A DNA stretch of 64,000 nucleotides, taken from positions 62,001-126,000 of the forward strand of contig NZ_OU343031.1 in the NCBI RefSeq assembly GCF_910593725.1, in the 5' to 3' direction. Positions 4,945 through 10,354 of this stretch are shown here, piece after piece. Under the pieces are notes generated by a model, which worked only from the letters and a program-made list of their open reading frames with translations, was not told where the DNA came from and searched no databases. Within the stretch, counting starts at the first letter, position 1; every line of letters starts with the position of its first letter. The position numbers and the translations under genes were made by a program. Source of the stretch: Candidatus Vallotiella hemipterorum. Lineage in GTDB: Bacteria > Pseudomonadota > Gammaproteobacteria > Burkholderiales > Burkholderiaceae.

Positions 4945-6406
4945 TAACCGGATCTCTATTTAAACATAAGGAAGCTTCCGATTCCCTATTCATGAAGTAC
5001 ATGGCATAGTTAAAAGCGAGCTGATACCGGGAATTTTTATGTTCGCCAGCATTTTACGCTGTCGCTAACAATTTTTGGTGCGTCATATTTAATATATTAC
5101 TATGTATAATAAACTGTGTATCGGTGCACATAAAATATTAGTACTCAATTTATGTTGCGCTGACATGGTTAGTGAATTACGGAGCAGATGTGCTTAAATT
5201 ACTATTTGACACTCACTGTAACTAACAAAACTATGTAATCTAATGTGTGAGAGTTTACACTCGGCGAGTACAAGCAGTGTTAATACTATATGTAGAATTT
5301 AAGGTAGCACGGCTCTAAAAAGAGTTGGACATGTCTTATGCTCTATCATAACAGCCGTTAATACTATAGCAACGCTGAAATTAACTAGATATCCGTCTTA
5401 TCGGAGCATGTCTCATGCTACGATCATCAGCCATAGAGCCGAGTTCTCTCGGTATTAGGTACTAGTATTTTAATATTAGATCCACCTAATTTAGAATTGT
5501 ATAACCTAGTATTGGTAGGTAGCGCGGGAAAAGGCTATGCGCTAATACGCCTTATAACTGTCAAGCTATTTTTCCTACTATTGTCCGAGTGGTAGAAAGT
5601 GTAATGTATTAGTCGTCACGACTGTGCTTATAATACCAGGCAAATGGTACTAATCTTACTGCTGCAGGGTCCTGCGGGTCCCCCTTTATGCCTGCGTTCT
5701 AACTCGAGCTAATCATTAGGGGTATGCTATGGCTGTAATAAACCACACCTTTCCACAAGATGATATAGTCTACTGTGCACAGTATTTCACAGATGCTAAC
5801 GTTTATGTAATGAATAGGGTATTCTCAACCTTATACAAAGCACTTATCTTTGTTTATTAGACAATGTAGGGAGCCATCTAAAATACTATAGAGTAGACAT
5901 TAAATAATGTATACATATATTAATATGCTCTTTAAAGCTAGTATAGCTATTACTAGCTACCGTATAAATAATAGTAAAAAACTAGAATTTGTATGGTGTA
6001 GCGTGCGTAGACAAATAGCATCGATACAAACCTTTTACTCAGTATGAATTGCCCTTTTTATTTACCATATAGTTTCTATACCTAGACTATACTAATACTA
6101 GCTATCTGTAGCACTAGCTGTAGTTAGTAGAAAAATATTTCACCGATTGAGGGGGCGCTATCTTTTATAGAAACCATTCTATCGTTGGAGATAGGGTTCT
6201 ATTTGCTACTCTAAGCACGACCTACTATGTGACACACTATCTAATATAACAAGTATGTTCGAGCGCATGCGTCACCTGTCTCGGTTTACCGCGTTATATT
6301 TTAGAGGTGTACGGCTTATAGAACATTGCGTCACAATTGACGTACTAAAATCGTTTATAAGCATGCTCAGAATCTGTATAATAATAGCAAAAGGATATGG
6401 GTAGTA
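4945..6406. other. gene desert between the folate ligase and cca, about 1.5 kb
   Basis: No intact gene. By Burkholderia synteny, from memory, this position should hold a soluble lytic murein transglycosylase, but I could not recover its catalytic block in any frame. It must contain the promoters of the two divergent flanking genes. TATA-rich stretches are too numerous to choose one. Confidence 0.45.
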
Positions 6407-7687
6407 ATGAAGGTATATGCAGTAGGTGGTGCCATTCGAGATGAATTGCTAGGCAAGCCAGCCCAAGATCGTGATTACGTAGTAGTCGGGGCAACACCCG
6501 AACAGATGATAGCGCAAGGCTTTCGCCCTGTTGGCAAGAATTTTCCGGTATTCCTACACCCTCGTACTCAAGAGGAATATGCCTTAGCACGAACAGAGCA
6601 CAAGATAGAAGCTGGTTATCACGGTTTCCAGTTTTTCTATGCGCCGGATGTGACGCTTGAGGAGGATTTAGCTAGGCGCGATCTAACTATTAATGCGATG
6701 GCACAAGCAGTATCATGCGATGGGGTGATACATGGTCCTATAATCGATCCGTTTAGTGGCCAGACAGATCTTCGGTCTCGTGTTTTTCGCCATGTTAGTG
6801 ATGCATTTACCGAGGACCCGGTGCGTATTCTGCGCGTGGCTCGCTTTGCTTCGCGATTTACTAATTTTATCATCGCGCCGCAGACACTGTCATTGATGCG
6901 GCAAATGGTTATAGCAAAAGAAGTAGATTCTCTAGTGCCTGAACGTATATGGCAGGAGTTCGCACGCGGCTTAATGGAACAAAAGCCCTCTCGGATGTTT
7001 AATGTGCTGCGCCAATGCGGTGCTCTAGAGCGCATACTACCTGAAGTAGCAAGACTATTTAGTGTGTCTAAGGGTATCGATTATCAGCCGAAAACCAGTA
7101 CCGGCACACATGCGATGACAGTCATCGACTATGCGGCGGCGCGGCATTATGAACTACCGGTGCGCTTTGCCGTATTTGCGTATAACCTAGTCGAGACCGA
7201 TATTCTGCCCCATGTACTTTCACGCTATGCTGGATATAAGGCATGTGGCGTCGAGCATATCCTCCAGCTTTGCAAGCGCCTGAAGGTTCCTAGCGATTGC
7301 CGCGACTTAGCAGTGTTAGTAGCGCATGAAGATAGTAACGTCCATCGTGTGATGGAGATGAGCGCTACTGCGTTGCTACACATACTAGAGCGCAGCGATG
7401 CGTTACGTAGACCTGCTCGGTTTATGCAGGCTCTGCAAGCCTGTGAGGCAAATTTTCATGGACGTCTAAACTTCGAGTGTCATCCTTATCCTCAGGCTAA
7501 ACGATTACTCGGCGCGCTGATAGCTGCTCGAGGTATTAATGCCACTGCCATTTCTAGTCGTACGCCTGACAGGCCCTCTTGTATTAAGAGAGCTGTGCAT
7601 GCAGTACGTGTGCAAGCTATCGAGTATGCGATACGCGAAGGCGTATGTAAGCAACGAATGCCCCCTGCTCCTCACTTAAAGCAGTAA
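6407..7687 (+). CDS. cca: CCA tRNA nucleotidyltransferase with degenerate HD domain
   Basis: Adds or repairs the 3' CCA of tRNAs. The N-terminal nucleotidyltransferase core is intact: VGGAIRDELLG (5-16), catalytic DRDYVVVG (21-28), HPRTQEEYALARTE, RRDLTINAMA and the EDPVRILRVARFASR motif around 137-150. The length (426) fits the long proteobacterial form with a C-terminal HD phosphohydrolase domain. In that domain the metal-binding His-Asp pair, present in E. coli as CHDLGKG, reads AYNLVET (258-264), and the following HHGHG-type motif reads SRYAGY, so the phosphodiesterase/phosphatase activity is probably gone while CCA addition remains. AAAAGGAT about ten bases upstream is the likely ribosome site. 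Confidence 0.95.
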   Translation: MKVYAVGGAIRDELLGKPAQDRDYVVVGATPEQMIAQGFRPVGKNFPVFLHPRTQEEYALARTEHKIEAGYHGFQFFYAPDVTLEEDLARRDLTINAMAQAVSCDGVIHGPIIDPFSGQTDLRSRVFRHVSDAFTEDPVRILRVARFASRFTNFIIAPQTLSLMRQMVIAKEVDSLVPERIWQEFARGLMEQKPSRMFNVLRQCGALERILPEVARLFSVSKGIDYQPKTSTGTHAMTVIDYAAARHYELPVRFAVFAYNLVETDILPHVLSRYAGYKACGVEHILQLCKRLKVPSDCRDLAVLVAHEDSNVHRVMEMSATALLHILERSDALRRPARFMQALQACEANFHGRLNFECHPYPQAKRLLGALIAARGINATAISSRTPDRPSCIKRAVHAVRVQAIEYAIREGVCKQRMPPAPHLKQ

Positions 7688-7929
7688 ACAGGCTTACTAT
7701 ATTGCGCTACGAATTTAATAAAAAGGTATTAGTACCACTAACGTTTAGCACAGATTATCTGGCGAGCGTATCCACTTAACTATACTGCCGAGTACCTATA
7801 ATCTTATATATAAAAATCAGCAGGGACTTTAGTAATAACGTTGTAAAAAAATTTACTAATAAGTTGACTAGTCGTAGTCACGATTATCTCAGCTCAAGCA
7901 TTATAGTTACATTAATGTGATAATCGTGC

Positions 7930-7949
7930 TTAGGTATTATAATACCTAA
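7930..7949. repeat. perfect 20-bp palindrome
   Basis: TTAGGTATTA followed directly by TAATACCTAA, its exact reverse complement, with no loop. Sixteen bases further is a second palindrome at 7965-7986. Function unknown; the lack of a loop favours a DNA-level site or chance in AT-rich sequence over an RNA hairpin. Confidence 0.7.
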
Positions 7950-7964
7950 AAAATACTTTTTATC

Positions 7965-7986
7965 TGCTACTACTATAGTAGTAGCA
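7965..7986. repeat. perfect 22-bp palindrome
   Basis: TGCTACTACTA followed directly by TAGTAGTAGCA, an exact inverted repeat with no spacer. It is the second of a close pair (see 7930-7949). Confidence 0.7.
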
Positions 7987-8696
7987 TCATATATATTTTG
8001 CCAAATTCTTTAAATGTACTATATCTTATTTAAGTATAATAGGTAAAAAGCGACCTATAAGGGATGCACCTATATAGTCATACTATAAGTATGTAGCTTT
8101 CTGCCTTATATTATCTAACCACTATAAGTATATATAATTAGTTATCCGGCAAGATGTCCTAAATTAACATTCTCCCGAACCCTTTGCTTCCTGTAAAAAG
8201 TAATTATATGAACAGAATGTGCTATTATAAGTAGGCTAATACCATATCATCTTAAATACAATTTAATTAATTCAAGAATTTTTAATAAACATTATAGAAA
8301 GATGTAATTCTATGTAGCACTATTCTAATTTCTATGAATACTTCGCCAGTATGCTTCGTCGGTGACGATAAGTAATATGTGATCGACTACTAGATTTGAA
8401 CGGATGCCTAACCTTTTATTAAAAGAAGGCATGTTTTTCTTATAGAGAGTATTTTTTATTTTGTTTAAAAAAATCTATTTACATCTTATTTTGTATTAGC
8501 TATAAATATATAAGCTATTAAAATTAATAACTCACGTATTTCTTATAAATTGAAATATTTATTAGCAGAATGCATGTTACTTATATATTATTAGGTAGGC
8601 AAAAATATTCCATATCAATTCTTACTCAGAATTTAGTATAAAATATTCATAGCTCTGAATAATGTAATCACAAAGAAATAAAGAAAATATTATGTC

Positions 8697-8745
8697 TATA
8701 TAAACTATCTCTACCGAGGCATTCTCGATAGAGATAGTTTATATA
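8697..8745. repeat. long hairpin, 22-bp arms with 5-base loop
   Basis: Arms at 8697-8718 and 8724-8745 are complementary at 21 of 22 positions around the loop GCATT; the one mismatch is C.A on the plus strand and a G.T wobble on the minus strand. No T-run follows on the plus strand, and no gene ends nearby, so it is not an ordinary terminator. Confidence 0.75.
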
Positions 8746-10354
8746 AAATGTTATTTTTGAATGTTGACTACTACTTGTATTGCCTTCTTGATGCAAGAAA
8801 GTGCAATCGGTGTTTAAAAGCTAGTTATCAAAAATAGATTCCTAGTTGCAATTAATGCCCCCCCACAAGTATAAGCCCCCCCTTTTTTTCTAGTACTAGA
8901 ACAGCTTTCTACGGTAAAACACGAACTGCTGAAAACAGCTGATAAGCAGTTAATTGCAAACGAGGTTATATAGGTGTATTTACGCGCATGTATTTAGGTA
9001 TAATACTATTATAGATCTCCTAGAGAGAAGAATAAACTATAGTGTAAATTTCTCTAGAAACAATTGATTTCGTAGTGCTTAAATAGAATTCATGGTAATA
9101 TGCGGTGTACTTCATTAAAAACTATAAATTCAAGCCAAAAAATTGAGAGATTAGGTATTTAGAAATTACTATCTATTTGATAAGCTAACCTGGTAGGTTT
9201 AGAAAAAAAATTATAGATGAATTTGAATTTATCTATAAAAAACCTGCTATTACATAGCATAGTTTATTTACTATACAATATAAACTGACTTATAGCTTCA
9301 AATAAAGCTGTGTGAGAATATAATTCTATATAAAAAAATTAGTTAGTAAGAGTAAGGCCTATCTAAGGGATTTTTATATTTGATAGTCTTGCTTCTATAT
9401 GCTAGAAAGCACTCTTCTACCTCATTGTCTAGCCACACGTATATATATTTTCCTAGGTTTTCTTATCTGTAACTCATTAGCCGGGCTATCAAATACTCTA
9501 TTAATTAGAAGTATTAGATAGTTAGAATTTAACTGCTAATAAATAGCTATGCTAATATATGCATATTTTCATTATCACCCTAAGGATTAATAATACTAGC
9601 GCTTATGGGCTTCGTGTTTTATATGCCTATAAATCTTAGACATATCTTCTACATTAATAAATATTATATAAATTGGATTAGCTAGAAATATAATAATAAA
9701 ACTTCTTACTGGCTCTGTCGAGAAGTAATCGTAATATAATTATATCTTGAATAATGCAGCAATATGCGCTTTTCGCTTGCTTAGCTCCTTTTATATAAAT
9801 AAGGGCTCATAAAGCCATTAGTTACGAGTATATTCGGCTAACTAATTCTTCAAACAATTTAGAATATTAAGATAGGCGCTTTCTATCAAATGAATTTCGT
9901 TTATTTAGCTCGCTTTCTTAGCATTAACTCTTTCGAGAGACTAAATTATTTTATAGCCTAAATAGGCGCATACTCTTCTAATTAAAAGTTAAACTCCCGG
10001 CAAACTAATCACTCTTGCCTTGCGTTATTAGCTATAAATACTATCGCCTATAAGGCTTCTAAAAAATAAGAATAATTAATATAAATATTACACACTTTAT
10101 AAGTGTTATCTAAATAGAACGTAGACACTTATGACTATAAACTAGTAATAATCGTCTACTAGTGATGTCAACTGTAATAGATAGTAGATCTAGCATTGCA
10201 TTTTAATGCAATGTCAAATATGAAATATAAATATTTTTTTATTTAAATCAGTCAAATTCTGTGTTAAATTTAACAAAATTTCATTTTTATATGATTCTTA
10301 TTGTATTAATTGAATGCATATAAAACTGGGTCAGTTTACTACCTAAGGACCGCT

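Follow-up and report, generated by a model that had tools for sequence, protein, structure and literature searches.

The CCA-adding enzyme (Cca) of "Candidatus Vallotia tarda" is most probably (about 0.82) still a working CCA-adding enzyme, whose HD phosphohydrolase site died by relaxed selection on the stem of a clade of symbionts and whose dead domain is kept as a scaffold. The species is reported to be a symbiont of larch adelgids, which are aphid-like insects, with a chromosome of 1,123,864 bases and a plasmid of 72,431 bases (PMC8692619). Within the window, by which we mean the whole 64,000 nt stretch of DNA that was analysed, the cca gene occupies positions 6407–7687 of the forward strand, starts with ATG and encodes 426 aa in an uninterrupted frame, open to the C-terminus as the initial annotation stated. 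The NCBIfam model of multifunctional Cca (NF008137) matches residues 1–408 with 542.4 bits, at a cut-off of 451. Two shorter CCA transferase models, NF009812 and NF009811, which we take to be HD-less from their lengths of 364 and 360, stay below their cut-offs in V. tarda Cca (356 bits versus 624, and 219 versus 469).

The nucleotidyltransferase half (residues 1–215, positions 6407–7051), with its head and RNA-binding domains, matches PF01743 and PF12627 above cut-off. Bacterial class II CCA-adding enzymes carry the motifs GG..R[D/E], DxD, RRD and EDxxRxxR, and all of these are intact on the forward strand of this region as GGAIRD (residues 7–12), DRD (21–23), RRD (90–92) and EDPVRILR (136–143). 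In particular, G7, G8, R11, D12, D21, R22, D23, R90, R91, D92, E136, D137, R140 and R143 are invariant across 27 aligned rows. V. tarda Cca therefore belongs to class II by its domain matches and head motifs, and the description of this half as intact in the initial annotation holds. Antisense to the same region lies an open frame of 132 aa (6637–7035, reverse strand), which is probably a by-product of cca codon use.

The Cca alignment comprises 111 rows, the window and 110 loci, the PcnB locus L002 having dropped out. The HD dyad is present in 106 rows (103 distinct sequences); the five rows without it, V. tarda included, amount to three distinct genes, those of V. tarda, V. lariciata and a third Vallotia genome, G002. 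Residues 216–315 include eight His/Asp positions that are shared by 105 or all 106 of the HD-bearing rows: H227, D231, H235, H259, D260, H274, H277 and H309, the last in 105 and hence not absolute. By the HD superfamily pattern, these eight presumably include the metal-binding residues. V. tarda Cca changes seven of them (H227Q, D231S, H259Y, D260N, H274Y, H277Y and H309D) and keeps only H235 (7109–7111); H313, conserved in 103 of the 106 rows, is also still present. At residues 259–264 (7181–7198), YNLVET replaces HDLGKA (H259Y, D260N, G262V, K263E), at the place and in the letters first noted. The next motif, given as SRYAGY in the initial annotation, is found at residues 272–277, where relatives have PRHxGH; here RYAGYK (273–278, 7223–7240) stands for RHxGHE (H274Y, H277Y, E278K). 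Further along, HED (307–309, 7325–7333) replaces REH (R307H, H309D). The losses of H227, D231, H274 and H309 come in addition to those noted before at H259, D260 and H277.

Judged from these residues, V. tarda Cca is predicted to have lost its HD phosphohydrolase activity. At E 0.1, none of the three HD-dead Vallotia proteins is matched by the Pfam HD model PF01966, and that of V. tarda is not matched even at E 1; the model scores 30.3 bits in Paraburkholderia (L006; cut-off 22) and 19.6 bits, below the cut-off, in the HD-bearing Vallotia-group genome G005. In M. tuberculosis Cca, the HD-motif change H298A is reported to abolish phosphatase activity, while a change in the transferase DLD motif spares it (PMC10673834). 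The losses in V. tarda are concentrated in one half of the protein, as only one of 12 equally conserved His/Asp positions in the N half is changed (D45). Further, of the sites that do not vary across eight HD-bearing relatives, those that deviate in each of the three HD-dead genomes number 20 of 118 for the C half and 4 of 154 for the N half (p = 4.6e-5 by Fisher's test, with sites that are not independent). Sequencing error is a very unlikely source of the substitutions because three genomes agree. Free-living relatives sharing them, which the initial annotation had named as evidence against its claim, were not encountered: the rows of Mycetohabitans and Paraburkholderia that were read all have the dyad. 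Overall, its proposal that the HD site was lost selectively while the transferase stayed is supported, with the qualifications that the loss of activity is predicted from residues, that the C half is not free of selection, and that the loss is not special to V. tarda.

To our knowledge, what the HD site of Cca does in vivo is little understood. The N-terminal half of HD-bearing relatives completes tRNA 3′ ends with C, C and A; their HD site, judging by homologous enzymes that have been characterised, uses a divalent metal to strip 2′,3′-cyclic or other 3′ phosphates from ends that are damaged. In the clade formed by V. tarda, V. lariciata and G002, residues of this site would have been substituted on the stem, most likely because end-cleaning had ceased to pay for a sheltered insect symbiont subject to strong drift. 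The CCA-adding half would have stayed under selection, its importance growing with the loss of encoded CCA from several tRNA genes, and the dead domain would have been kept for packing against the enzyme or helping to hold tRNA.

The HD site most likely died only once, on the stem of this clade, because substitutions are shared and the HD-dead genomes form a clade with the intact-site G005 outside it. In particular, D260N, K263E, H277Y, E278K and R307H are common to V. tarda (G000), V. lariciata (G004) and G002. A tree built from N-half DNA only unites the three genomes as a clade (support 100/99), with G005 just outside and Mycetohabitans further out; the N-half protein tree recovers these groups, though less well supported (84/95 for the clade; 94/92). 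From its tree position and a published account (PMC8857208), G005, which like G002 is a small genome of this genus group, may be V. cooleyia, of the Douglas-fir lineage. Other replacements vary across the three HD-dead genomes (259 is Y/H/H, 274 is Y/R/Y and 309 is D/Y/Y); moreover, V. lariciata Cca lacks 7 residues at about 221–227 and G002 Cca has 2 extra residues before 272.

Because some tRNA genes of the clade have no encoded CCA, CCA addition must stay, and V. tarda Cca is predicted to continue it. Among the tRNA genes read, which are mostly the higher-scoring ones, with CCA scored after the discriminator base, those without CCA number 8 of 36 in V. tarda (41 in the genome), 6 of 37 in G002 (43) and 8 of 39 in V. 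lariciata (43), versus 1 of 31 in G005 (43) and 0 of 30 in Mycetohabitans G007 (48); the unread genes are mostly lower-scoring. Four genes, Arg-TCT, Val-TAC, Ala-GGC and Ser-GCT, are without CCA in all three HD-dead genomes and with CCA in G005. Hansen and Moran reportedly dealt with tRNA 3′ maturation in reduced symbionts in 2012. The loss of encoded CCA in reduced genomes is already known (PMC5143459), and a study of minimal translation describes cca as present to compensate for it (PMC9035817). RNase Z (TIGR02651) was above cut-off in none of the six genomes searched (four Vallotia and two Mycetohabitans). As a candidate for taking over from the HD site, ThpR/LigT (TIGR02258), a 2H phosphoesterase family, was rejected: it matches both Mycetohabitans genomes (G003 and G007) and none of the four Vallotia genomes (G000, G002, G004 and G005), so that a second RNA-end enzyme family is missing from Vallotia too. 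An initiator-like tRNA gene (CGCGGGG...CCCCGCAA) is the only gene without CCA among the 31 read in G005, where CAA follows; an initiator-like gene in G002 also lacks CCA and is followed by CCC. Both go against the published trend, as initiator tRNA genes are described as the class that most consistently templates CCA in reduced genomes (PMC5143459).

These tRNA genes raise a rival explanation, in which the two losses are causally linked: with CCA no longer encoded, Cca would turn from repair to obligatory synthesis, and end-cleaning would become useless. A single branch can accommodate both changes, as the four shared genes illustrate, and the pooled genes without CCA number 22 of 112 in the HD-dead genomes versus 1 of 61 in G005 and G007 (Fisher p = 3.7e-4, with genes that are not independent). 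However, this is a single coincidence, and the link is not supported outside the clade. "Candidatus Pandoraea novymonadis" (G016), a trypanosomatid symbiont, lost the dyad separately, yet all 28 of its counted tRNA genes (of 42) encode CCA; in M. tuberculosis, the Cca HD site is reported to be active although 32 of 45 tRNA genes lack CCA (PMC10673834). In the class sample of 369 genomes, 97 of the 111 without an HD match have more than 15 hits to a pattern of T-arm plus CCA, while 15 or fewer hits also occur in four genomes that do match the HD part. We therefore regard a causal link as unlikely.

A general rule connecting HD loss with encoded-CCA loss was tried on the same 369 genomes, with an HD-only protein query, the T-arm-plus-CCA pattern and tables read by eye, and was rejected: it is a weak trend at best, uncorrected for kinship, and G016 contradicts it. 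Eighteen genomes have 15 or fewer pattern hits. Ten of these, from five families, match Cca and not the HD part (G190, G202, G233, G298, G303, G315, G341, G398, G410 and G418); four, from three families, match the HD part (G308, G313, G383 and G403); and four have no Cca match (G078, G160, G228 and G336). Some low-CCA genomes are incomplete (G298 at 55%, G403 at 72%).

Cca without an HD dyad recurs in Burkholderiales and in the class, large genomes included, which lowers the novelty of the V. tarda case. Among Burkholderiales relatives, 57 of 61 genomes (G000 counted) have a Cca match, and the 50 Cca proteins read include 30 with the dyad and 20 without it, a sample that is biased, the choice of 20 having been guided by weak or partial matches, with 7 of the 57 unread, so that it gives no unbiased rate; the dyad-less relatives include genomes of 4.0–4.9 Mb (G046, G038 and G058). 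In the class sample, 344 of the 369 genomes match the full Cca protein and 258 the HD part, although matching the HD-only query says little about whether the dyad is intact, G000 itself matching at 4.2e-28. Forty class genomes were picked for small size or a weak HD match, and 30 of them were read, 10 with the dyad and 20 without. The dyad was lost by point changes in a mostly kept domain in G374, G368, G138 and G077, and by deletion in others. Cca of G374, a 4.1 Mb genome, has YD at the dyad position, and G151, under the same genus label (g142), matches the HD part at 3.6e-32; G374 is a possible case of recent HD loss in a large-genome bacterium. In the titles and abstract openings of open-licence PMC literature, we found nothing on HD loss in symbiont Cca or on CCA templating in Vallotia.

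Compared with the E. coli-type Cca with an HD domain (NF008137/PRK10885), V. tarda Cca has the same order of parts, a full-length match and intact transferase motifs, but it is without the HD dyad that makes this type multifunctional. The automatic name consequently overstates its function, and this is a wider naming problem, as the NCBI equivalog model also places G016 Cca (459 bits) above its cut-off. Dyad-less proteobacterial Cca proteins, many of about 350–400 aa, resemble V. tarda Cca in presumably adding CCA without an HD hydrolase; however, many have the HD segment deleted or unrecognisable, whereas in V. tarda the domain is nearly full length and carries point substitutions. A parallel is offered by G016, published as six contigs totalling 1.16 Mb (PMC5632650). 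Its genome is likewise reduced and its HD residues are point-substituted (IHSLGKE and RNIAYE), but the origin is separate, and the HD segment is preceded by an internal gap of 16 residues; all 13 other members of the genus Pandoraea that were read (the 12 drawn and G036) keep HDLGKG. We regard the V. tarda case as an informative midway stage of a recurring process, not as a novel type of enzyme. More tentatively, the clade may show Cca in mid-conversion from repair to obligatory CCA synthesis, with tRNA genes starting to shed their encoded tails on the branch where the HD site died and with the dead HD domain kept for holding tRNA or for packing; it would then be a natural step on the way to the Cca proteins of many Proteobacteria that have no HD segment.

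Selection on the two halves was compared with a purpose-written codon model (GY94 type, F3x4) with background, post-loss, stem and G005 branch classes; base composition varies among the rows, and the model ignores these differences. The N half served as the rate control because only two genes besides cca had orthologues in all eight genomes. The background omega is 0.063 for the N half and 0.060 for the C half, and rises after the loss to 0.219 and 0.464, respectively. For the post-loss C half, the model rejects both an omega of 1 (2ΔlnL = 25.3) and an omega of 0.219 (2ΔlnL = 23.4). On the G005 branch, where the site is kept, the halves are alike (N 0.19, C 0.205), and a model without a separate G005 class gives a similar result. 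A smaller taxon set under two codon-frequency settings gives post-loss values of 0.165–0.19 (N) and 0.38–0.42 (C), with a background omega somewhat higher in the C half than in the N half (0.132 versus 0.089; 0.168 versus 0.142). The C half is therefore relaxed but not neutral since the loss (omega 0.38–0.46 versus 0.17–0.22 for the N half), and the comparison of halves across related symbionts, proposed with the claim of selective loss, backs it with an omega about twice as high in the C half.

Pairwise counting is less uniform. For each of the three pairs within the clade, dN is higher in the C half (no contrary result in 1000 bootstraps), while the C-half dN/dS ratio is clearly higher in only two of the three (P = 0.000, 0.158 and 0.020); the HD-bearing pair Mycetohabitans–Paraburkholderia also has a faster C half (dN 0.162 versus 0.076). 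On the G016 branch, the codon model gives tip lengths of 4 and 12, meaning that synonymous changes are saturated.

Relaxed selection on an accessory activity is the cause best in line with this evidence, with drift as its probable driver. The loss could instead have been adaptive, for example if a phosphatase with nothing to do squandered nucleotides or hindered CCA addition, and the recurrent absence of the dyad, in large genomes too, speaks for this. No stem omega exceeds 1, however (HD core 0.574, C half 0.274; an average that may hide a few selected sites), and we consider an adaptive loss improbable, although for one event on one branch drift and adaptation are inseparable.

An omega below 1 in the C half indicates that something is selected there, and the site might still hydrolyse phosphates through other ligands (H235, N260, D309, H313 or their neighbours) or act on a new substrate. 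H235 and H313 do remain; but V. tarda has substitutions at the two dyad residues and at five more conserved His/Asp positions, and at 259, 274 and 309 the three genomes do not carry the same replacements, as they should if a new site were being preserved. Moreover, the C-terminal helical tail (residues 316–405, positions 7352–7621) is as constrained as the HD core, with post-loss omegas of 0.471 and 0.449; the tail is itself relaxed but not neutral (2ΔlnL = 12.1 against an omega of 1) and is modelled with block pLDDT values of 82–95. Model confidence also drops at the former site. In particular, AlphaFold2 gives residues 261–280 pLDDT values of 59 and 56 in V. tarda versus 87 and 82 in a G005 control with the same 27 rows, and residues 221–230 a value of 52 versus 71. 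Together these points make residual or new hydrolysis quite improbable.

As far as one pair of models goes, the AlphaFold2 results are in keeping with a fold that is retained and a former active site that has loosened locally. The mean pLDDT is 84.4 for V. tarda and 89.2 for G005, and the V. tarda blocks that flank the former site are predicted with confidence (86–96 for residues 231–260 and 90–96 for 281–320); a short C-terminal extension past the ends of most relatives (residues 413–426, positions 7643–7684) has low confidence at 414–426. A Foldseek search of the PDB, which covers the HD part only as a portion of the whole model, returns tRNA nucleotidyltransferases and CCA-adding enzymes at the top (best E 1.5e-10). 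CCA-adding enzymes and related tRNA-processing nucleotidyltransferases fill ranks 1–46, and the first phosphodiesterases appear at ranks 48–50 (E 0.13 or worse). The dead HD domain probably survives as a scaffold, for structure and packing or for tRNA binding. A possible precedent for such a scaffold or tRNA-handling role is the beta subunit of E. coli glycyl-tRNA synthetase, a different enzyme and no relative of Cca, whose HD fold is reported to have Ser-Lys instead of the dyad and cavity residues that affect tRNA charging (PMC8464048).

It is highly improbable that the whole gene is decaying as a young pseudogene with neither activity left, since the raised post-loss omega of the N half, which could suggest it, reflects symbiosis in general, being nearly as high on the HD-bearing G005 branch, while N-half neutrality is rejected (2ΔlnL = 88.6), the transferase motifs are invariant, the frame is kept in three genomes and tRNA genes without CCA need the enzyme. 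On the preferred reading of a working enzyme with a dead HD site, the close pair of G005 (with the site) and V. tarda (without it), together with the further losses in the class, makes the purpose of the HD site, and what accompanies it, testable.

Two observations concern the surroundings of the gene. Long stretches on both sides of cca (4945–6406 and 7688–10309) contain no ORF of at least 100 aa, in line with the coding density of 64.9% published for the V. tarda chromosome (PMC8692619). Further upstream, an SAH riboswitch (RF01057; 41.8 bits, cut-off 37) at positions 399–513 lies immediately upstream of an ORF at 541–1965, a regulatory RNA retained by a reduced symbiont genome.
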